Positions 23,877 to 42,392 of a stretch of 64,000 bases of DNA are shown piece after piece. The DNA comes from Phycisphaerae bacterium RAS1 (GTDB lineage: Bacteria > Planctomycetota > Phycisphaerae > UBA1845 > Fen-1342), in assembly GCA_007859745.1 (NCBI GenBank), contig SMLU01000004.1:1-64000 (forward strand), in the 5' to 3' direction. Positions within the stretch are counted from its first letter, which is position 1. Each line of letters begins with the position of its first letter. The notes under the pieces are model-generated. The model was not told the DNA's origin. It saw only the letters and a list, made by a program, of their open reading frames with translations, and did not search any database. A program made the translations under genes and the position numbers.

Positions 23877-24374
23877 ATGGGCCTCTGTCAGCGCTGCAAG
23901 AAAGCCCAGGCCACCTTCCACTTGACGAACATCGACCCGCACGGCAACAAGATGGAGCAGCATCTCTGCGAGCGCTGCGCCATCGAGGAAGGATTGCAGC
24001 AGGCCAAGTCCCCCGTCTCGGTCAACGAGTACGTCGAGACCTTCCTCGCCTCCAGCAAGGCCGGGGCCGCCGCCGCCAGCAACCTCGTCTGCGAAAACTG
24101 CGGCATCACTTACATCGAATTCCGCAACCAGGGCATGCTCGGCTGCCCGGATGATTATGACGCCTTCAAGGAGCACCTCGCCAAGCTGATCGAGCGCGCC
24201 CAGGAAAACGCGACCCACCACGTCGGCAAAACCCCCAAGGCCCCGGCGACGCGCAAGCCCGGCCCGGCCGAAGTGCGACGGCTCAAGAAGCTGCTCGAAG
24301 AGGCTGTGGCCGCCGAAGATTACGAGCGCGCCGCGCAGCTCCGCGACCGCATCGGCGAGCTGGAGAAGGCATGA
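23877..24374 (+). CDS. mcsA: McsA-like zinc-finger/UVR protein, activator of the McsB arginine kinase
   Basis: McsA stimulates McsB, which phosphorylates arginines and marks proteins for ClpCP in Firmicutes. The 165-residue protein shows two CxxC pairs (Cys4/Cys7, Cys31/Cys34), a further CENC (Cys72/Cys75) with Cys90, and a C-terminal UVR motif (about 132-165, EVRRLKKLLEEAVAAEDYER). A GGAG site lies about 8 nt before the ATG. Its stop overlaps the mcsB start by 4 nt (ATGA). Neither ctsR nor clpC is present in this window. Confidence 0.9.
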   Translation: MGLCQRCKKAQATFHLTNIDPHGNKMEQHLCERCAIEEGLQQAKSPVSVNEYVETFLASSKAGAAAASNLVCENCGITYIEFRNQGMLGCPDDYDAFKEHLAKLIERAQENATHHVGKTPKAPATRKPGPAEVRRLKKLLEEAVAAEDYERAAQLRDRIGELEKA

Positions 24375-25432
24375 GCGCCGGCCTGGGCGATTTCGCGAAG
24401 CAGGCCGGCGAATGGCTTCGCGGCGTCGGGCCGCTGCACGAAATCGTCATCTCCACGCGCATTCGCCTGGCGCGCAACATCCGCGGATTTTTCTTCCTCT
24501 CGCGGGCCGACGCCAAGATGCGCGCCGACATCGCCGACGCGGCCCAGTCGGGAATCAAGAAGGCCCGCACGCTCGGCGACCTAATTCACGTCGACGTCGA
24601 GAAGCTCGACGAGCTGGACCGCACCCTGCTGGTGGAGCGGCACCTCATCAGCAAACAGCACGCCGAAAGCTCCGGCGCCCGCCGCGTGGCCTTCGACGCC
24701 ACCGAAACCTCCGCCGTGATGATCAACGAAGAGGATCACCTGCGAATCCAGGTGATGCGCAGCGGCCTTCAGCTCGGCGAGGCGTGGGAGCAGATCGACC
24801 AGATCGACACCTCCCTCGCCGATCAGCTCGAGTTCGCGTTTCACCCCCAGTATGGCTACCTGACCGCCTGCCCCACCAACGTCGGCACCGGCATCCGCGT
24901 CTCCGTGATGCTCCACCTGCCCGCTTTGCGGCTGACCAACGAGCTTGAAAAAGTGGCCCAGGCGGCCCGCGACATGCGCCTGGCGATCCGCGGCCTGCAC
25001 GGCGAAGGCACCGAAGCCCTCGGCGACTTCTTCCAGATTTCAAACCAAACCACGCTCGGCCGCTGCGAGCTCGACATTATCGACGACTTCCGCACGGTCG
25101 TGATTCCGAAAATCGTCGAGTACGAGCAGAACGCCCGCAAGGCGCTGCTCAAGAACCGCGTTCACGCCCTGGACGACAAGATCTGGCGCGCCATCGGGCT
25201 TCTGCGACACGCGCGGCTGATGAGCTCGAACGAGGCCATGCAGTGCTTGTCGCACCTGCGCATGGGGCTGCACGTCGGGCGCGTCAAAGACATCAACCTG
25301 CAGACGCTCAACGAGCTCTTCCTCCAAACCCAGCCGGCGCACCTGCAGAAGCTGCAGGGGGAGCGCCTCAACGGCGAACAGCGCAGCATCGCCCGCGCCA
25401 CGTTCATCCGCTCCCGCCTCAGCAATAATTAA
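24371..25432 (+). CDS. mcsB: Protein arginine kinase McsB
   Basis: A 353-residue ATP:guanido phosphotransferase domain protein. Visible are ISTRIRLARNIRGFFF (27-42, phosphate-binding arginines), INEEDHLRIQVMRSG (about 118-132, guanidinium side) and LTACPTNVGTGIRVSVMLHL (about 159-178) with the active-site Cys that precedes the nucleotide-binding segment. These match McsB and not metazoan creatine or arginine kinases. Coupled translation with mcsA supports a working kinase-activator pair. The targets cannot be inferred here. Confidence 0.94.
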   Translation: MSAGLGDFAKQAGEWLRGVGPLHEIVISTRIRLARNIRGFFFLSRADAKMRADIADAAQSGIKKARTLGDLIHVDVEKLDELDRTLLVERHLISKQHAESSGARRVAFDATETSAVMINEEDHLRIQVMRSGLQLGEAWEQIDQIDTSLADQLEFAFHPQYGYLTACPTNVGTGIRVSVMLHLPALRLTNELEKVAQAARDMRLAIRGLHGEGTEALGDFFQISNQTTLGRCELDIIDDFRTVVIPKIVEYEQNARKALLKNRVHALDDKIWRAIGLLRHARLMSSNEAMQCLSHLRMGLHVGRVKDINLQTLNELFLQTQPAHLQKLQGERLNGEQRSIARATFIRSRLSNN

Positions 25433-28840: not shown

Positions 28841-31513
28841 TTACCCGTTCGCCGACGACGGCGCGTCGCCGTCGATTCCCAGCGTCTTCATCGCGCCCGC
28901 CAGCCTGCTCCGCTCAAACTGTCCGCGCGCCGCGACCGAACAGAGCGCCGCGTAGACCATGTGCTCGGCGTCGGTCTCAAAATGCCGTCGCAGGCTTTCA
29001 CGCGTCTCGCTGCGGCCAAAACCATCGGCGCCCAGCGCCGTCAGTCCCGCCGGCGTCCACGGTGCGATACGCTGCGCCAGGGCCTTAACGTAGTCGCCGG
29101 TGCTGACGATCGGCCAGGGCTCGCCGGCCAGGATTTGCTGCACATACGCGGTGCGCGGAGTCTCGGCCGGATGAAGGCGATTCCAGCGTTCGACCTCCAG
29201 CGCCTCGCGGTACAGCTCGGTGTAGCTCGTTGCGCTCCAGACGTCCGCCGCCACGCCGAACTTGTCCCGCAGGATCTCCTGCGCCCGCAGCGCCTCGCGA
29301 ATAAGCGGGCCGCTCCCGAATAAATGGACCCGCGCCGCCCCCGCCGCCACGTTCTCGGCGGCGCGAAACTTGTATAGACCCTTCAGAATCCCCTGCTCGG
29401 CGCTGTCGGGCATGGCCGGCTGCTCATGCACCTCGTTGTACGCCGTCAGGTAGTAGAACACGCTCTCCTGCTCGAAATACATCCGCCGAACGCCCTCGCG
29501 GATGATGATCGCCAGCTCGTACGCGAATCCCGGGTCGTACGAGATGCAGTTGGGCACCGTGCTGGCGTGCAGATGCGAGTGACCATCCTGGTGTTGCAGC
29601 CCTTCGCCGTTCAGCGTGGTGCGGCCCGCTGTCGCGCCCACGAGGAACCCGCGGCAGCGCATGTCCGCCGCCGCCCAGATGCTGTCGCCGATGCGCTGGA
29701 AGCCGAACATCGAGTAGAAGATGAAAAACGGGATCATGTTCAGCCCGTGCGTCGCGTACGCCGTCCCCGCCGCGGTGAACGAAGCCATCGACCCGGCCTC
29801 GGTGATGCCCTCTTCGAGAATCTGGCCGTTCTGCCGCTCTTCGTAGCGCATGAGCTGGGCGTGATCGACCGGCTCGTAGAGCTGGCCGGCGTGGGCGTAG
29901 ATGCCGTAGGTGCGGAACAGCGCCTCCATGCCGAACGTGCGGGCCTCGTCGGGGACGATCGGGACGATAAGCTTGCCCAGCCGCTTGTCAGCCAGCAGCC
30001 GCGCCAGCATGCGCATCAGCGCCATGGTGGTGCTGGCCTTGCGATCGCCGCTGCCGCCCATGAACTCGTCGAACAGCTCGACGCCGGGGGCCTCGAGTTT
30101 CTGCACCTGGACCCTGCGGGCCGGCACTGAGCCGCCCAGCGCCCGGCGGCGCTCGGTCAGGTATTCGTATTCCGCGCTGCCCTTCTCGAAGCGATAGAAC
30201 GGCGCGTTCTTGATGTCCTTGTCGCTGACCGGGATTTCAAACCGATCGCGGAAGTGCTTCATTTCCTGCTCGTTGAGCTTCTTCTGCTGGTGCGTGACGT
30301 TTCGGCCTTCGCCCGCCTCGCCCAGTCCGTAACCCTTGATCGTCCGCGCCAGAATCACCGACGGCCGGCCTTTCGCCGCCAGCGCCGCCGAAAAAGCCGC
30401 GTAGACTTTCTCCGGGTCGTGCCCGCCCAGGCGCATTCGGTGAATCTGGTCATCGCTCATCTGCTCGACCAGCTTCGCCAGGCGCGGGTCGCGGCCGAAA
30501 AAGTGCTCGCGCGCGTAGCCGCCCGGCTCGACCGCGTAACGCTGCCACTGGCCGTCGACGATCTCATCCATCGTGTCGATCAGAATGCCGTCGGCGTCGG
30601 CCTCGAACAGCGGATCCCAGTCGCTTCCCCAGATGCACTTGATGACGTTCCATCCGGCCCCGCGAAACGCCGCCTCCAGTTCCTGGATGATGTTGCCGTT
30701 GCCGCGCACCGGGCCGTCCAGCCGCTGCAGATTGCAGTTCACCACCCACGTCAGGTTGTCGAGCTGCTCTCGCGACGCGAGCGTGATCGCGCCCAGACTC
30801 TCCGGCTCATCCATCTCGCCGTCGCCCAGAAACGCCCAAACCCGCGAACCGTCATGCGGCAGAACACCGCGATCAACCAGGTACGAATTGAACCGCGCCT
30901 GGTAGATCGACGTGATCGGCCCCAGTCCCATTGAGACCGTCGGATGACACCAGAATTTCGGCATCAGCCACGGATGCGGATAGCTCGATAGTCCGCCGCC
31001 CGGGGCCAACTCACGCCGAAAGTTGACCAGGTGACGCTCGTCCAGCCGGCCTTCGAGATACGCCCGGGCATAGATGCCGGGCGAGGAATGACCCTGAAAG
31101 AAGATTTGGTCGCCGGCTGTCTCGGGATCTCCGGCGCGGAAGAAGTGGTTGAACCCGACTTCGAGCAGCGTCGCGACAGAAGCGTAAGTCGAAATATGGC
31201 CGCCGATGCCGTCCGACAGCTTGTTCGCGCGAACCACCATCGCCATCGCGTTCCAGCGCAGGACGCTCTTGATGCGGCGCTCGATCTTGCGGTCGCCGGG
31301 ATATGGCGGCTGGTCTTCGCGCGCGATGGAGTTAATGTAAGGAGTGTTGGCGTTGAACGAGATCGGAACTTGCCGGCGGTGGGCCCAGCGCTGCAACTGC
31401 TCGATCAGAAAGGCGCTGCGTTGAGGGCCGGAGGCACGGTCCACCGCCTCGATGGATTCGAGCCAGTCGGCGGTCTCGGAGGGGTCATGGTCGCGATAAT
31501 TGTGTTGTAACAT
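28841..31513 (-). CDS. aceE: Pyruvate dehydrogenase E1 component, homodimeric type
   Basis: Thiamine-diphosphate enzyme that decarboxylates pyruvate and acetylates the E2 lipoyl domain. The 890 residues match the homodimeric AceE family: N-terminal NTPYINSIAREDQPPYPGDR, the active-site loop region HISTYASVATLLEVGFNHFF, and the TPP motif GDGEMDEPES ... NLQRLDGPVRGN. The transketolase-like middle (GITEAGSMASFTAAGTAYAT) and C-terminal domain (VWSATSYTELYREALEVERW) are intact. E2 and E3 genes are not in the window. The gene is divergent from an ArsR-type regulator gene across 137 bp. Confidence 0.96.
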   Translation of the reverse strand: MLQHNYRDHDPSETADWLESIEAVDRASGPQRSAFLIEQLQRWAHRRQVPISFNANTPYINSIAREDQPPYPGDRKIERRIKSVLRWNAMAMVVRANKLSDGIGGHISTYASVATLLEVGFNHFFRAGDPETAGDQIFFQGHSSPGIYARAYLEGRLDERHLVNFRRELAPGGGLSSYPHPWLMPKFWCHPTVSMGLGPITSIYQARFNSYLVDRGVLPHDGSRVWAFLGDGEMDEPESLGAITLASREQLDNLTWVVNCNLQRLDGPVRGNGNIIQELEAAFRGAGWNVIKCIWGSDWDPLFEADADGILIDTMDEIVDGQWQRYAVEPGGYAREHFFGRDPRLAKLVEQMSDDQIHRMRLGGHDPEKVYAAFSAALAAKGRPSVILARTIKGYGLGEAGEGRNVTHQQKKLNEQEMKHFRDRFEIPVSDKDIKNAPFYRFEKGSAEYEYLTERRRALGGSVPARRVQVQKLEAPGVELFDEFMGGSGDRKASTTMALMRMLARLLADKRLGKLIVPIVPDEARTFGMEALFRTYGIYAHAGQLYEPVDHAQLMRYEERQNGQILEEGITEAGSMASFTAAGTAYATHGLNMIPFFIFYSMFGFQRIGDSIWAAADMRCRGFLVGATAGRTTLNGEGLQHQDGHSHLHASTVPNCISYDPGFAYELAIIIREGVRRMYFEQESVFYYLTAYNEVHEQPAMPDSAEQGILKGLYKFRAAENVAAGAARVHLFGSGPLIREALRAQEILRDKFGVAADVWSATSYTELYREALEVERWNRLHPAETPRTAYVQQILAGEPWPIVSTGDYVKALAQRIAPWTPAGLTALGADGFGRSETRESLRRHFETDAEHMVYAALCSVAARGQFERSRLAGAMKTLGIDGDAPSSANG

Positions 31514-33551: not shown

Positions 33552-34958
33552 TCAATCGCGCCCTGTCGCGGGCGGGGCGGCGGCGGGCGCCGCCGCCGGC
33601 CGGACCAACCAGGCCGCGTCATACACATCCACAAACGCCGGCGGAACGGATTGCGCCGCCCCGGACGACGCCAGCCGAATGACGAAGCCGATCGCGCTGC
33701 GCTCCGGCTGGCCGCGCCGCGCGTTGTTCTCCGAAAAACCCCAGCGCTGTCCCACACCTACCATCTCAAAACGCGTGAACCGGCCCGCATCCAAGTCGAA
33801 GGTCGCCTGCCCGAGCAGCCGCGTAACAATTCCACGCGGATGCGCCCGCTCCGGCTTCCACACCGCCTCGCTCATGTCCCACTGATCGCCGCTGACGGCC
33901 CGTGTCTCGCCGCGGAGCTCAATCTCGACGCAAGCCCCGTCGCGCGCCGTGACGCGCGACTCGATCCGCGAGCCGGCCACGTCGGCGCGGGTGAATGGAA
34001 CCGTCTGTCCGCGCACATTGTCGACCAGGTGGAATCGCGCCAGCCGCTCAACCAGCGCTGTCGGGACGTTGACAACGGCGCCGCGCGTCGCATCCGCCGG
34101 CAACCACGCGCGGGCTTCATCCCGGCTGAACCAGGCGTGGTCGCGATTCCAGCGCGAATCACGGCAGGAGGCCGCGTCGCTCGCGGAGGGCGATTCAGGC
34201 AGGGCAGGCGACTCGCGCTGTGCCGGCGATTCCTGCGGCGTCGGCGGGTCGCCGCGAAGGTCGCGGTTGGTCGTTTCGAGAATCAGCCCACCCTCCGGCC
34301 GGGCATGCTCCCAGCGCGGCTCGAAACGGGCGGCCAGGTCGGCGGGCAGCCGCCGCTCGGCCGGGCTGAGCGCGTCCCAGGCGCTCAATCCCGAAGCGAG
34401 CGTCTTGCAGACCTCATCCGCGTCGAGGGAGTTGATCGACGCCAGCAGTCTGCCGCCGGGCGTGCAGATGTAGATGCCCTGTCGCGTCCCGCCGGCGGCG
34501 CGGTAGTGGCCGCGGTCGGCCATCGCTTGAAAGAAGCGGCATTCCGCGCCGGACCCGGTCTGCAGCCGCCAGACCTCATCCGTGGCCGCGACGAAGCGGC
34601 TAGCCATCTCGATCGCTTTCGGGTTTGACCAGACGGACCGTCTGTCGGCAAGTCCGTTGCCTCAGGTGCAGCCGAGCGGGTGACCGTTCATCACCCAGAG
34701 CAGCAACGGCCGGTCGGCGGCGTCAGCGGCAAGCAACCCATCGCGGAACGTGGGCAGCCACGCGACGCGCTCCCAGGCGGTCTCGTCGGCGGTCGGCAGG
34801 ATGAGCGCCCGCCAGTCGGCGAGGTTTGCCGGCGTGAGCGCGATCCGCTCAGCGGCGAGGAGGGCGTCCGCGAGTTGCTCGGGCGGAGCATCGGCGCCCA
34901 AGGCAGCGACGGCGCCGGCGCACCAGACGATCACGGAACGGATCGGGTGACGGATCAT
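33552..34958 (-). CDS. Probable selenoprotein: exported thioredoxin-like protein with in-frame UGA (Cys97-Thr98-Sec99)
   Basis: Two halves in the same frame are separated by one TGA at 34662-34664; the next 18 codons are open and continue into the long downstream half. Read through, it is 468 residues. The N-terminus (MIRHPIRSVIVWCAGAVAAL) is a signal or anchor. A thioredoxin-like segment follows: RPLLLWVMNGHPLGCT, then the UGA codon, then GNGLADRRSVWSNPKAIEMA; later comes GIYICTPGGRLLASI. UGA thus falls two residues after a Cys at the redox-loop position. GAGGAG lies about 8 nt before the ATG. A stem-loop with GGUC follows the UGA. The C-terminal part (about 280-450) is unrecognised. A nonsense mutation or sequencing error is the alternative. 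Confidence 0.68.
34630..34661 (-). promoter_or_regulatory. Candidate bacterial SECIS stem-loop directly after the UGA
   Basis: On the mRNA, 17 nt after UGA (GGCAACGGACUUGCCGA) comes the palindrome CAGACGGUCCGUCUG, with a 5-6 bp stem and a GGUC loop. The E. coli fdhF element also presents GGUC at a similar distance, and bacterial SECIS models ask for a G at the loop start 16-37 nt after the UGA. The first 15 nt can also pair as GGCAA / UUGCC. A competing fold pairs ACGGAC with GUCCGU. The sequence is compatible with SECIS but not proof of it. Confidence 0.5.
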
Positions 34959-34997
34959 CGAATGGCTCCTCTATGACGCGATGAAGCTCGGCGGGCC

Positions 34998-35125: not shown

Positions 35126-37696
<2,571 letters not shown>

Positions 37697-38255
37697 GACC
37701 ACGAAACCTCACTGGTCAGACGTTGAGCCTAAATGACCTGGCGGAGAACTCAGACGACCGGACGCCTCGCCGCACCCGCAATACCCACGGTCGGCGTTCA
37801 AAACGGACCGCCGAGCGGCGAGCCGCGTAATCTACTGCAAACGCAAAAAAACGAAAGGCCGCGCGTCGCCGAACATGAAGAATTATTTGCGGATCGCGGG
37901 GCATGCCGCGGACATAATCAGACCGCGGATTGCGGAATAAACCCTTGACCCGCCGGGGCGGATTCGCGATAACTGGAGCATCGGTCAACCTGTCTCGGGC
38001 GCCTCTCGCGCCCGCGCGGCGCGGCCCGGTCATCGCGGGCCGCCGTCCGTTTGCTGTTCGGCGGGTGCAATTGCCCGCGTTTTGGAGGTGAAAGGGCCAA
38101 GCACATCGCGTTTACGCTAGGTCTCATTGTTGTTTGATGACATGGAATTTTTCACATCTGAACGGCCGCCCAGCCTCGCCGCTTAGGGGCATCGAGGCGA
38201 ACTCCGTTGCTTGGCGCAACCGAGATTGGCCGTTCGCAGCCTGAGGAGAAGGTCA
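37697..38255. other. Divergent promoter region between hppA and the large secreted protein gene
   Basis: The 559 bp hold no supported gene. TTGACC (37945-37950) and GATAAC (37968-37973), 17 bp apart, form a plausible plus-strand promoter with a leader of about 270 nt. The stretch 38110-38165 is AT-richer (GTTGTTTGATGACATGG) and may hold a second promoter. A GAGGAGAAGG site precedes the ATG at 38256. Confidence 0.5.
37945..37973 (+). promoter_or_regulatory. Candidate sigma-70-type promoter for the large secreted protein
   Basis: TTGACC, 17-bp spacer, GATAAC. The match is 5/6 and 4/6 to consensus, in the correct direction. Confidence 0.35.
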
Positions 38256-41200
38256 ATGCGAAGCTTCTGCATTGCGGTAGTTTCCCTCACGGCGGCGTGT
38301 AGCTTGTGTGTTACACCCGTCCAGGCAAACGACTCCACACCACCCGGCGTCAAATCCAGCTTCGACGCTGCGAGCCACGCCACCGGCACGCGCCAGCCGG
38401 TCGCCACTAAGCGCCCGTCACAGGGCGACCTGGCGGACAAAATGGCCAGCCGGCCGGGGCCGGACAGCGTCTCGGCGCGGCAGCCCGTCTCGCGCACCGG
38501 CGGGGGGACGATCGATCCAAACGCCAGCCTTTCGACTCGCCCGGAACATCCGATCGACATCGGCGGCGGGCACGACGGCGGCGTGCGCCAGGGCGGTGAC
38601 ACGTGCGCTTCCGCGACTGCGCTCGCCGGAGCGCTGCCGATCACGGTCAGCGGCACGACCATCGGCTACGCAAATGATTACGACGAAGTCTGCCCGTTCA
38701 CCGGCTCAACTTCGCCGGACGTGGTCTATTCCTACTCTCCCACGACGGACATCCTCGTCGAAATCAACCTCTGCGCGTCCTTCTACGACACCAAGGTCTA
38801 CGTCTACCAGGGCTCGTGCGGCAGCGGCGCCATCGCCTGCAACGATGACGGCTGCCCCGGCTCTCCCCCGGACGCGTATCGCTCGCGGATTCCGCAGCTC
38901 CAAATGGCCTTCGGCGAGACCTACTACATCGTCGTGGACGGTTACTTCGGCGAACAGGGCGATTACTCGCTGACGCTCTCCGAGCGCATCCCGGTCGTGA
39001 TCGAGTGCCCGCCCAACGGCATTCAGGAGAACGAAGCGAATTGCGGCCTGCCGACCGACACGGTCAACGGCGGCTGCAACTCCATTCCGCCTGTGTTCAC
39101 CAACATCTCCTGCGGCCAGACGATCTGCGGCAGTGGCGCCTTCGACGGCGGCCTGCGCGACACGGACTGGTTCCAGCTTGTGCTGACCACCGACACGCTC
39201 GTCACGCAGACCTGCGTGGCCGCCTTCCCGGTCGTGATCGGCATCGTCGACACCGGCGGCATTCCGGACTGCAGCCTCGCCACCGCGCTCAATCCGTTCG
39301 CCGTCGGCGGCGCGAATGAGCAGATCGCGATCAGCGCCTGCCTGCCCGCCGGCACCTACTGGTTCTTCGTCGGCGCGCAGTTCGCTGAGCTGGTCGCCTG
39401 TCCCTCCAGCTACGTGACCAGTTTCTCGTGCGAGACTTGCTTTGTCCCGACCGGCGCCTGCTGCGTGGCCGGACAGTGCAACATCATCTCCGGCGGCACC
39501 TGTGCAGCGCAGGGCGGCGTTTACTTCGGCGACGGGTCCACCTGCGATCCGAACCCCTGCCTGATCAACTGCCCCGACGGCGCTCAGATCGAGCAGGAAC
39601 CGGATTGCGGCCTGCCGAACGACACCGTCAACGGCGGCTGCAACTCGGCGCCCCCGGTGTTCGGCAACGTCGCCTGCGGCCAGACCATCTGCGGCAGCGG
39701 CGCGTTCGACGAGGGCATCGGCTTCCGCGATACCGACTGGTACCAGGTTGTCGTGACCTCCGACACGCTCTTCACCTGGACCGTGCAGGCGTCCTTCCCG
39801 GTCGTGATCGGCCTGGTGGACACCGGCGGCGTTCCGGATTGTGCGTTCGCGACCGCGCTCGATCCGTTTGCGATCGGCGCCCCGCTCCAGCCTGTCAGCG
39901 TGTCGACCTGCGTGGGCGCCGGCACGTATTGGTGGTTCGTGGCGCCTGACTTCGCGCCGGGAATCCCCTGCCCCTCGCCCTATGTGGCAACGCTCACCTG
40001 CGAGCCATGCACGGCCCCGCGCGGCGCGTGCTGCCTCAACGGCGAGTGCGTCCCCAACCTCACCGAGGGTGAGTGCGGCGCCGGCGGCGGCATCTACCTG
40101 GGCGATGGCTCAGGCTGCACGCCTGACCCGTGCGCCCCGGCTGACAACGACGATTGCAGCCAGCGCGTCCTGCTCGGCCTGCCGTCGGTCGTGGCCGGCA
40201 GCACGCTCAGCGCCACGTTCGACGCGGTGCCCGATTGCGGCACGTCGATCAGCGCTCCGGGCGTCTGGTACAGCGTCATCGGCGATGGCAACACCATCAC
40301 CGCCACCACCTGCGGCGCGTTCTTCGGTTACGACACGAAGCTGAACATCTACTGCGGCTCGTGCGAGAACCCGGTCTGCGTCACCGGTAACGACGACGAC
40401 TGCTTCAGCGGCGCCAACGTCTTCAGCAGCACCGTCTCCTGGTGCTCCGCCATGGGTCAGGAATACCTGATCCTGGTTCAGGGCTTCGGCGGCGCCACTG
40501 GTCCGTTCATCATGAACCTGTCCTCTGACGGGTTCCCCTGCAGCTTCCCGCCGAGCTGCGTGCCGCCCACCGGCGCATGCTGCGTCAACGGGAACTGCGT
40601 CGGCACCACCGAGCAGCCCGAGTGTCTCAACATGGGCGGCACCTGGTTCGAAGGCAATACCTGCCCCGGCTTCGCTTGTCCGATCCCGCCGACGAATGAC
40701 AATTGCCCCGACGCAATCGCCATCAACACCGGCCAGGTCGTCAGCGGTGACACCACGCTCGCCACCTTCGACGCCCCGCCCACCTGCGGCACGTCGATCT
40801 CGGCCCCTGGCGTCTGGTACACCATCGTGGGCAACGGCCACATCTACGATGCCACCACGTGCGTCAGCTTCTTCGGCTACGACACCAAGCTGAACGTCTA
40901 CTGCGGAACCTGCGACGGCCTCTTCTGCGTCGGCGGTAACGACGACGACGCGTCCTGCGGCATCGACGGATTCCTCAGTCGCGTGACCTGGTGCACCGAA
41001 GCCGGCCGCACGTACTACATCCTCGTTCAGGGCTTCGGCGGTAGCGTCGGCGCCTTCGAACTGCTGGTGACCGATACCGGCACCACCTGTGACAACCCCG
41101 TCCCGTGCGCACCCTGCACCCCGCCGGCCTGCCCGCCCGGCTCGATCCTCGAGAACGAGCCGAACTGCGGTCTGCCGACTGACACCGTCAACGGCGGCTG

Positions 41201-42392
41201 CAACAGCACGCCTCCTGTGTTCACCGAGATCGAATGCGGCGCCACCGTTTGCGGCAGCGGCGCGTTTGACTCCGCACTTGGCTTCCGCGACACCGACTGG
41301 TACCAGGTCACCTTCACCGGTGAAACCCAGGTCGAGTGGTGCGTGACGGCGGCCTTCGACTCGCTCGTCGGCATCGTCGAAAACGGCGGCGTCCCGGATT
41401 GTGCCGGCGTCAGCGCGTTCCGCGTCTTCGCGACCGGCCTGCCCTGCCAGACGGTCTGCGTCACGTCCACGCTGCCCGCGGGCACGTGGTGGTTCTTCGT
41501 CGCGCCGCAGTTCACGCAGGATTGGCCGTGTGAGACGCCCTACGTCGCCACGCTCAACTGCATCACCTCCGGCGCTTGCTGCCTGCCCAGCGGGGATTGC
41601 GTGATCCTCAGCCCGCATGATTGCGGCGCCGCCGGCGGTAGCTACCTCGGCGACAACACCAACTGCGGCGGCTCGGGCGGCAACCCGATGACCTACACGT
41701 CGAATCCGGGCCTGTCCATTCCGGACAACGTCCCGTCCGGCGTAAGCGACACGATGAACGTCCCCGACTCGATCACGATCGGCGACGTGAACATCGGCCT
41801 GACGATCCCGCACACCTGGGTCGGCGACCTGGTCGTCAGCGTCACGCACGGCGCGACCACCGTCACGATCGTCGATCGCCCGGGTCAGTCCGGCAGCGGC
41901 TTCGGCTGCTCCGCGGACAACTACAACGGCATCGTCATCGATGACGAGGGCGTGGTAGGCATCGAGAACGCCTGCGCCGACAATCTCACCAGCCCGCCGA
42001 ATTACCGTCCCAACAACCCGCTCAGCGCGTTCGACGGACAGAATTCGGCCGGAGCGTGGGTGATCAATGTCTCCGACAACGCCGGCGCCGACCTCGGCAC
42101 GCTGGTCAGTTGGTCGGTGATCATCGACACCGCCGGCGTCAGCCCCTGCGCGCGTCCGTGCGGCCTGTGCGGCGACTCGAACTGCGATGGCGTCGTGAAC
42201 ATCCTCGACATCAACGCGTTCATCACCGCCATGTCGAATCCGTCCAAGTGGGAGTCGGAGTATCCGTGCAACTACTGCTGCGCGAACGACACCAACGGTG
42301 ACGGCTTCGTCAACATGCTCGATGTCAACCCGTTCATTCTCGCCATCGAGAACGCGGGTTGCCCGCAGTCGACCGCCTGCAACGGTCGCTAG
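38256..42392 (+). CDS. Large secreted Cys-rich protein with P-domain and dockerin-like C-terminus
   Basis: The 1378-residue exported protein has a signal peptide (1-25, ends VQAND). It contains PPC-like beta domains (ASATALAGALPITVSGTT; two closer copies with CGTSISAPGVWY), three copies of a CGLPTDTVNGGCNS domain, and four small units starting GACC (about 50 residues, 6 Cys). A proprotein-convertase P-like domain follows (about 1165-1290, with NIGLTIPHTWVGDLVVSVTH). The C-terminus has two EF-type loops, DSNCDGVVNILDINAFI and DTNGDGFVNMLDVNPFI, like dockerin type I. Function is probably structural or adhesive at the cell surface; the dockerin may anchor it to a cohesin partner. ATG at 38256 has GAGGAGAAGG 4 nt upstream. 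Confidence 0.85.
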   Translation: MRSFCIAVVSLTAACSLCVTPVQANDSTPPGVKSSFDAASHATGTRQPVATKRPSQGDLADKMASRPGPDSVSARQPVSRTGGGTIDPNASLSTRPEHPIDIGGGHDGGVRQGGDTCASATALAGALPITVSGTTIGYANDYDEVCPFTGSTSPDVVYSYSPTTDILVEINLCASFYDTKVYVYQGSCGSGAIACNDDGCPGSPPDAYRSRIPQLQMAFGETYYIVVDGYFGEQGDYSLTLSERIPVVIECPPNGIQENEANCGLPTDTVNGGCNSIPPVFTNISCGQTICGSGAFDGGLRDTDWFQLVLTTDTLVTQTCVAAFPVVIGIVDTGGIPDCSLATALNPFAVGGANEQIAISACLPAGTYWFFVGAQFAELVACPSSYVTSFSCETCFVPTGACCVAGQCNIISGGTCAAQGGVYFGDGSTCDPNPCLINCPDGAQIEQEPDCGLPNDTVNGGCNSAPPVFGNVACGQTICGSGAFDEGIGFRDTDWYQVVVTSDTLFTWTVQASFPVVIGLVDTGGVPDCAFATALDPFAIGAPLQPVSVSTCVGAGTYWWFVAPDFAPGIPCPSPYVATLTCEPCTAPRGACCLNGECVPNLTEGECGAGGGIYLGDGSGCTPDPCAPADNDDCSQRVLLGLPSVVAGSTLSATFDAVPDCGTSISAPGVWYSVIGDGNTITATTCGAFFGYDTKLNIYCGSCENPVCVTGNDDDCFSGANVFSSTVSWCSAMGQEYLILVQGFGGATGPFIMNLSSDGFPCSFPPSCVPPTGACCVNGNCVGTTEQPECLNMGGTWFEGNTCPGFACPIPPTNDNCPDAIAINTGQVVSGDTTLATFDAPPTCGTSISAPGVWYTIVGNGHIYDATTCVSFFGYDTKLNVYCGTCDGLFCVGGNDDDASCGIDGFLSRVTWCTEAGRTYYILVQGFGGSVGAFELLVTDTGTTCDNPVPCAPCTPPACPPGSILENEPNCGLPTDTVNGGCNSTPPVFTEIECGATVCGSGAFDSALGFRDTDWYQVTFTGETQVEWCVTAAFDSLVGIVENGGVPDCAGVSAFRVFATGLPCQTVCVTSTLPAGTWWFFVAPQFTQDWPCETPYVATLNCITSGACCLPSGDCVILSPHDCGAAGGSYLGDNTNCGGSGGNPMTYTSNPGLSIPDNVPSGVSDTMNVPDSITIGDVNIGLTIPHTWVGDLVVSVTHGATTVTIVDRPGQSGSGFGCSADNYNGIVIDDEGVVGIENACADNLTSPPNYRPNNPLSAFDGQNSAGAWVINVSDNAGADLGTLVSWSVIIDTAGVSPCARPCGLCGDSNCDGVVNILDINAFITAMSNPSKWESEYPCNYCCANDTNGDGFVNMLDVNPFILAIENAGCPQSTACNGR

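Follow-up and report, generated by a model that had tools for sequence, protein, structure and literature searches.

An open reading frame on the reverse strand of the window, by which the whole 64,000-nt stretch of DNA from Phycisphaerae bacterium RAS1 is meant, raises the question of whether an in-frame TGA truncates the gene or is read through and, if the latter, as which residue and in what kind of protein. The frame (33552-34958, reverse strand) runs from an ATG at 34958 through 468 codons to a TGA stop at 33552-33554 (codon 469), and its sole internal stop is the TGA at 34662-34664, codon 99. A ribosome-binding site, GAGGAG, is located at 34966-34971 on the same strand, 7 nt ahead of the ATG, and this reading of the frame agrees with the original prediction of a gene with one interruption and a GAGGAG start. 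The codons just before the internal TGA are TGC-ACC, for Cys97 (34668-34670) and Thr98. With selenocysteine (Sec) at codon 99, the product would be a selenoprotein of 468 aa consisting of a probable signal peptide, assigned by eye (MIRHPIRSVIVWCAGAVAALGA, 34893-34958), a thioredoxin-like domain of about residues 45-195 (34374-34826), assigned from a structure model, a fold match to AGR3 and weak Thioredoxin_7 matches of a few family members, and a beta-rich C-terminal domain of about residues 212-452 (33603-34325), delimited from structure models. The N termini of some homologues appear by eye lipobox-like, not signal-peptide-like.

To ascertain the nature of codon 99, homologues were compared across the UGA. 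The first relatives, found by tblastn-type searches, all have TGA at the aligned column. A profile search detected the family in 113 of 392 Planctomycetota genomes, and the 116 copies that align over the site comprise 107 with TGA, six with Ser and one each with Asp, Pro and Arg, the Arg copy probably being a misalignment beside a Cys-TGA; Cys occurs in none. A second sample, drawn from another class and comprising 154 genomes that partly overlap the first, contained the family in 70, with one TGA in nearly all full-length copies and Thr, Asp or Ser, and never Cys, in those TGA-free copies that were read. In total, the search for Cys forms covered the Planctomycetota genomes, one peptide-pattern scan of 85,000 species, and plasmids, the last of which yielded no family member at all. 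Bacterial selenoproteins usually, though not necessarily, have Cys-containing homologues. Most homologues are 25-55% identical to the window protein, and homology continues on either side of the UGA. The family motif is W-x-M-N-G-H-P-L-G-C-T-U-(G/N)-N-G, with Sec99 lying in the part MNGHPLGCTU(G/N)NG, and among the 107 Sec members His93 is conserved in 102, Asn101 in 105, Cys97 in 98 and Thr98 in 96. The placing of Cys97-Thr98-TGA where a redox pair would lie, as first proposed, is upheld as to position and refined as to the residues, Cys97 being variable and Sec99 the better kept. In a subfamily (L093, L086, L097 and relatives) the motif reads DGHPLGCTUNNGVLDR, the C-terminal part diverges more, and the SECIS differs in sequence (CGUGAGUCCACG in L086). 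One member close to a Planctomycetota group (that of L024) comes from a record titled Bacillota (L023, QNYK01000053.1), which is probably a mislabelled or contaminated MAG.

The machinery needed to decode Sec had been noted as absent from the window, and so it is; selA, selB, selC and selD are all located elsewhere in the genome. The assembly (5.5 Mb, 99% complete, with the window in contig C4) was searched as the original prediction had proposed, and contains selB (298 bits, above the curated cut-off, and 322 with its neighbour), selA (533 bits in one frame), selD (380 bits) and a tRNA-Sec of 95 nt, its anticodon called as TCA by ARAGORN. The host selD (G000:C2:159537-160460; L028 1480-2424) carries an in-frame TGA of its own within YASCAGUAGKLP, where SelD selenoproteins have their UxxK site. 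SelD (TIGR00476) is a protein unrelated to that of the window but depends on the same decoding machinery, and its Sec codon is thus an independent sign of another Sec gene in this genome. The host organism has a complete Sec pathway and a second selenoprotein gene of a well-known type.

Recoding of UGA in bacteria is guided by a SECIS hairpin, and the original prediction had placed one 17 nt from the UGA with the spacing and loop G of known elements. In the window gene a hairpin, CAGACG-GUC-CGUCUG, can form 17 nt past the UGA (core stem at 34630-34644 with a GUC loop at 34636-34638) within the 20-nt segment GACAGACGGUCCGUCUGGUC (34627-34646, reverse strand), its apical loop being 23 nt away from the UGA. 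The arrangement lies within the bSECIS geometric limits of a 3-9 nt loop, a 4-16 bp stem, a spacing of 16-37 nt and a G in the first two loop positions (PMC13188914). The predicted geometry was therefore borne out by the bSECIS search. The energy is -5.8 kcal/mol for the uninterrupted stem and -7.4 for the best 20-mer fold, to be set beside a bSECIS threshold of -7.5 or lower. Over nt 16-42, 74 of 104 members reach this threshold. A comparable hairpin follows 14% of all TGA triplets in the GC-rich window and, given this background and the modest stability, the hairpin in a single sequence proves nothing. In a strict contiguous-stem scan 57 of 104 members pass, compared with 14% of background TGAs, an enriched but weak signal. 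When the 61 nt downstream of the UGA were folded for seven members, they showed no stability excess over shuffled sequences (z 0.15 for the hairpin), and their global folds differed.

Because single-sequence folding was uninformative, comparative tests were used instead. Synonymous conservation was measured by aligning the codons of 71 Sec members, taking expectations from the codon usage of each gene and using only pairs below 70% nucleotide identity. It peaks after the UGA. Of 313 windows along the gene, the highest-ranking fall at codons +3 to +13 (mean z 2.2), and the three most constrained of 310 columns (z 4.1-4.5) are codons +6, +8 and +10, which carry, in this order, the 5' arm of the stem, the G of the loop and the 3' arm. 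Where codon +9 encodes Ser, its wobble base is C with CGG in 24 of 29 cases and U with CAG in all five, which re-forms the closing pair (p = 9e-4 in a test that takes C or U wobbles only, leaves out G and A and ignores shared ancestry). The core pair 23-33 is formed in 67 of 68 members. Exhaustive pair statistics did not set the stem apart within the region, since the stem columns hardly vary. By eye, Arg106 of the window gene is AGA where most relatives have CGG, converting a G-U to an A-U pair, and the A can pair with a U that relatives bulge out. In one subclade (L081, L085, L087 and L089) the hairpin seems shifted about 3 nt downstream (CCAGA-UGG-UCUGG in L081). The comparative evidence of the TGA column and the synonymous peak lifts the putative hairpin well above chance.

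An in-frame stop in one assembly could also mark an ordinary thioredoxin-like gene broken by a true stop or a sequencing error, and many of the relatives are known from MAGs. Given that the same column holds TGA in 107 homologues from roughly 100 independent assemblies, and that GC3 and conservation carry on past it, a pseudogene or error is barely credible and was rejected on the conserved column. Sequence alone cannot fix which residue is inserted, so the UGA might be decoded as another amino acid, whether by leaky readthrough or by a general reassignment, or the truncated product might be the one that counts. This is very improbable: the constraint at the level of the SECIS, the presence of selA, selB, selC and selD, and the Ser or Pro found at the site in genomes without the machinery all argue for Sec. 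Reassignment of the code was rejected given the Sec machinery and the use of TGA to terminate the window gene itself, many relatives ending in TAA or TAG at roughly this position. These comparisons strongly support the insertion of Sec at the UGA, and the gene almost certainly encodes a selenoprotein whose family had not been catalogued before. SelB and Sec-tRNA-Sec would read UGA 34662-34664 as Sec, guided by the hairpin 17 nt downstream.

To place residue 99 within a fold, the protein was modelled with AlphaFold2 from a 75-row alignment (mean pLDDT 88, pTM 0.88), with most of the thioredoxin-like domain above pLDDT 93. In the model, residue 99 lies directly ahead of helix 100-108, the position of the thioredoxin nucleophile at the start of the helix, and by position U99 corresponds to the first Cys of CxxC. 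The best solved fold for the N-terminal domain was AGR3 (probability 0.99, TM(target) 0.58, E 0.02), although fold searches with the whole protein and with the C-terminal domain returned nothing at E 0.001 or better; by probability, only this AGR3 match of the modelled N-terminal domain is convincing. A conserved Gln160 appears, from alignment by eye, to take the place of the thioredoxin cis-proline. Modelled alone, the C-terminal domain is beta-rich (pLDDT 89) and has no convincing PDB match. The C-terminal extension described originally thus turned out to be a conserved domain without a known fold match, and the reading of the protein as thioredoxin-like with Cys-Thr-Sec agrees with both the fold model and the TGA column.

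The window protein has no match in Pfam or NCBIfam (June 2026), and 75 members gave no family-level match in either, the best NCBIfam E being 0.011. The NF-numbered families, which reportedly stem from Haft and Tolstoy in 2025, were compared through NCBIfam. A catalogue of May 2026 holds 119 families (PMC13188914), and its Table 1 contains nothing with the motif and architecture seen here. Selenoproteins of two other planctomycetes have been reported (PMC4807772); no description of the family was found in the literature searched, which includes the main text of PMC4807772. The initial view that the family is not among the named selenoproteins holds for Pfam, NCBIfam and the 119-family catalogue. 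The nearest catalogue entry is VPGUxxT (NF041383/NF041382; OS_HP5 in PMC13188914), also found in Planctomycetota, which shares a Thioredoxin_7-like N-terminal domain with a KP-hLL strand followed by a Sec/Cys loop (hhalign of the N-terminal domain: probability 79, E 1.6e-5, 117 columns). It differs in its motif, PG(U/C)xTC as opposed to PLGCTU, and in its C-terminal part. Membership of NF041383 requires more than 275 bits and the VPGUxxT motif; only two of the 75 members match it, at best at E of about 0.01, and the window protein does not. Thioredoxin_7 (PF13899) and human AGR2/AGR3, which give the best fold match (AGR3) and weak PDB sequence matches (AGR2/AGR3), are likewise related in fold, but the window family has a longer loop, Sec in place of Cys and the additional C-terminal beta domain. 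PF13899 is matched weakly by 6 of the 75 members (best E 0.005), below family level, and not by the window protein. Sec.1 (PF13192; PMC13188914 Table 1) has the same CxU arrangement in a thioredoxin-like protein, and is matched by none of the 75 members at E 0.1.

Inclusion of the family as a divergent branch of VPGUxxT or of the Trx7/PDZ selenoproteins (NF041199) would draw on the hhalign score and on the two NF041383 matches. It is unlikely, as the best NCBIfam E is far from family level, NF041199 is unmatched at E 0.1, and the GCTU motif, the C-terminal domain and the lack of Cys forms all differ; on sequence comparison, the window family and VPGUxxT appear to be separate families of a shared superfamily. 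Thioredoxin-like bacterial selenoproteins are a known kind, whereas this family, widespread in Planctomycetota, and its apparent Sec-only distribution are not. More room exists for doubt over function. Gene neighbours include no partner conserved beyond close relatives, so context gives no substrate hint. Near the gene, 28841-31513 and 35126-37702 look by eye to encode a pyruvate dehydrogenase E1-like protein and a membrane pyrophosphatase, neither conserved beside the family elsewhere. Also by eye, a protein like the McsB protein arginine kinase is at 24371-25432, and 38211-42392 encodes a large protein in which Cys-rich units recur and the C terminus resembles a dockerin. A role outside thiol-disulfide exchange, with Sec as a ligand for a metal or for selenium or heavy metals, or in a peroxidase without a resolving Cys, is possible but doubtful: Cys97 is not universal, Gln160 seems to replace the usual cis-Pro, and next to Sec both His93 and Asn101 hardly ever change, but a Sec at the helix start of a thioredoxin-like domain with a Cys two residues away in 92% of Sec members is the usual redox layout. 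The activity would most likely be that of an extracytoplasmic thiol/selenol oxidoreductase or a peroxide/thiol reductase. Such a redox protein would probably be exported, judging from its signal-peptide-like N terminus. Sec99, placed where the first active-site helix starts and in the position of the attacking CxxC Cys, would attack as the selenolate, and Cys97, two residues earlier, may resolve it as a selenenylsulfide in most members; this step cannot be universal, as 9 of the 107 Sec members lack Cys97. The C-terminal beta domain may bind a ligand or a protein substrate.

The distribution of the family was compared with that of the decoding machinery. Of the 102 genomes with strong family matches, 94 encode selA, as do 146 of the remaining 290 (Fisher p 1.8e-15, shared ancestry ignored). 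In eight of the 102 no selA was found. Five of these (G142, G224, G274, G324 and G340) have Sec copies or, in G142, a fragment without the site, and all have selB over the cut-off, with tRNA-Sec also present in G142 and G324. The other three (G157, G234 and G356) have only Ser or Pro copies, and neither selA, selB over the cut-off nor tRNA-Sec was found in them. Two further genomes (G369 and G435) have Ser forms only, yet keep the machinery. At one locus (L074, G170:C37) a Sec copy adjoins a Ser copy (QGNPLGLPDMAPS), and the clade of this Ser copy is found by itself, too, in genomes that lack Sec decoding (L073, L075). A quick maximum-likelihood tree with 113 rows, the root of which was not fixed, nests the 10 non-Sec rows inside Sec clades and requires four changes for them, forced by well-supported branches. 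Sec therefore looks to be the economical ancestral state, lost at least four times. The losses go to Ser, Thr, Asp or Pro, never to Cys, and mostly coincide with loss of Cys97, which suggests that the redox function was lost and not replaced by sulfur. Whether the family is Sec-only, without Cys relatives at family level or reversion to Cys, the site passing to Ser, Thr, Asp or Pro on loss and sometimes with the whole machinery, is a close call and is put forward tentatively.

The family adds to about 119 known prokaryotic selenoproteins and is present in 29% of the 392 sampled Planctomycetota genomes. That no Cys homologue was found would explain why it had been missed, and suggests that other Sec-only families may hide in genomes as truncated or split genes. 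Genomes in which a Ser or Pro copy has outlived Sec decoding offer a direct test of what selenium contributes. If the Sec-only reading is true, the protein would perform chemistry beyond the reach of sulfur and would help to keep Sec decoding in Planctomycetota.
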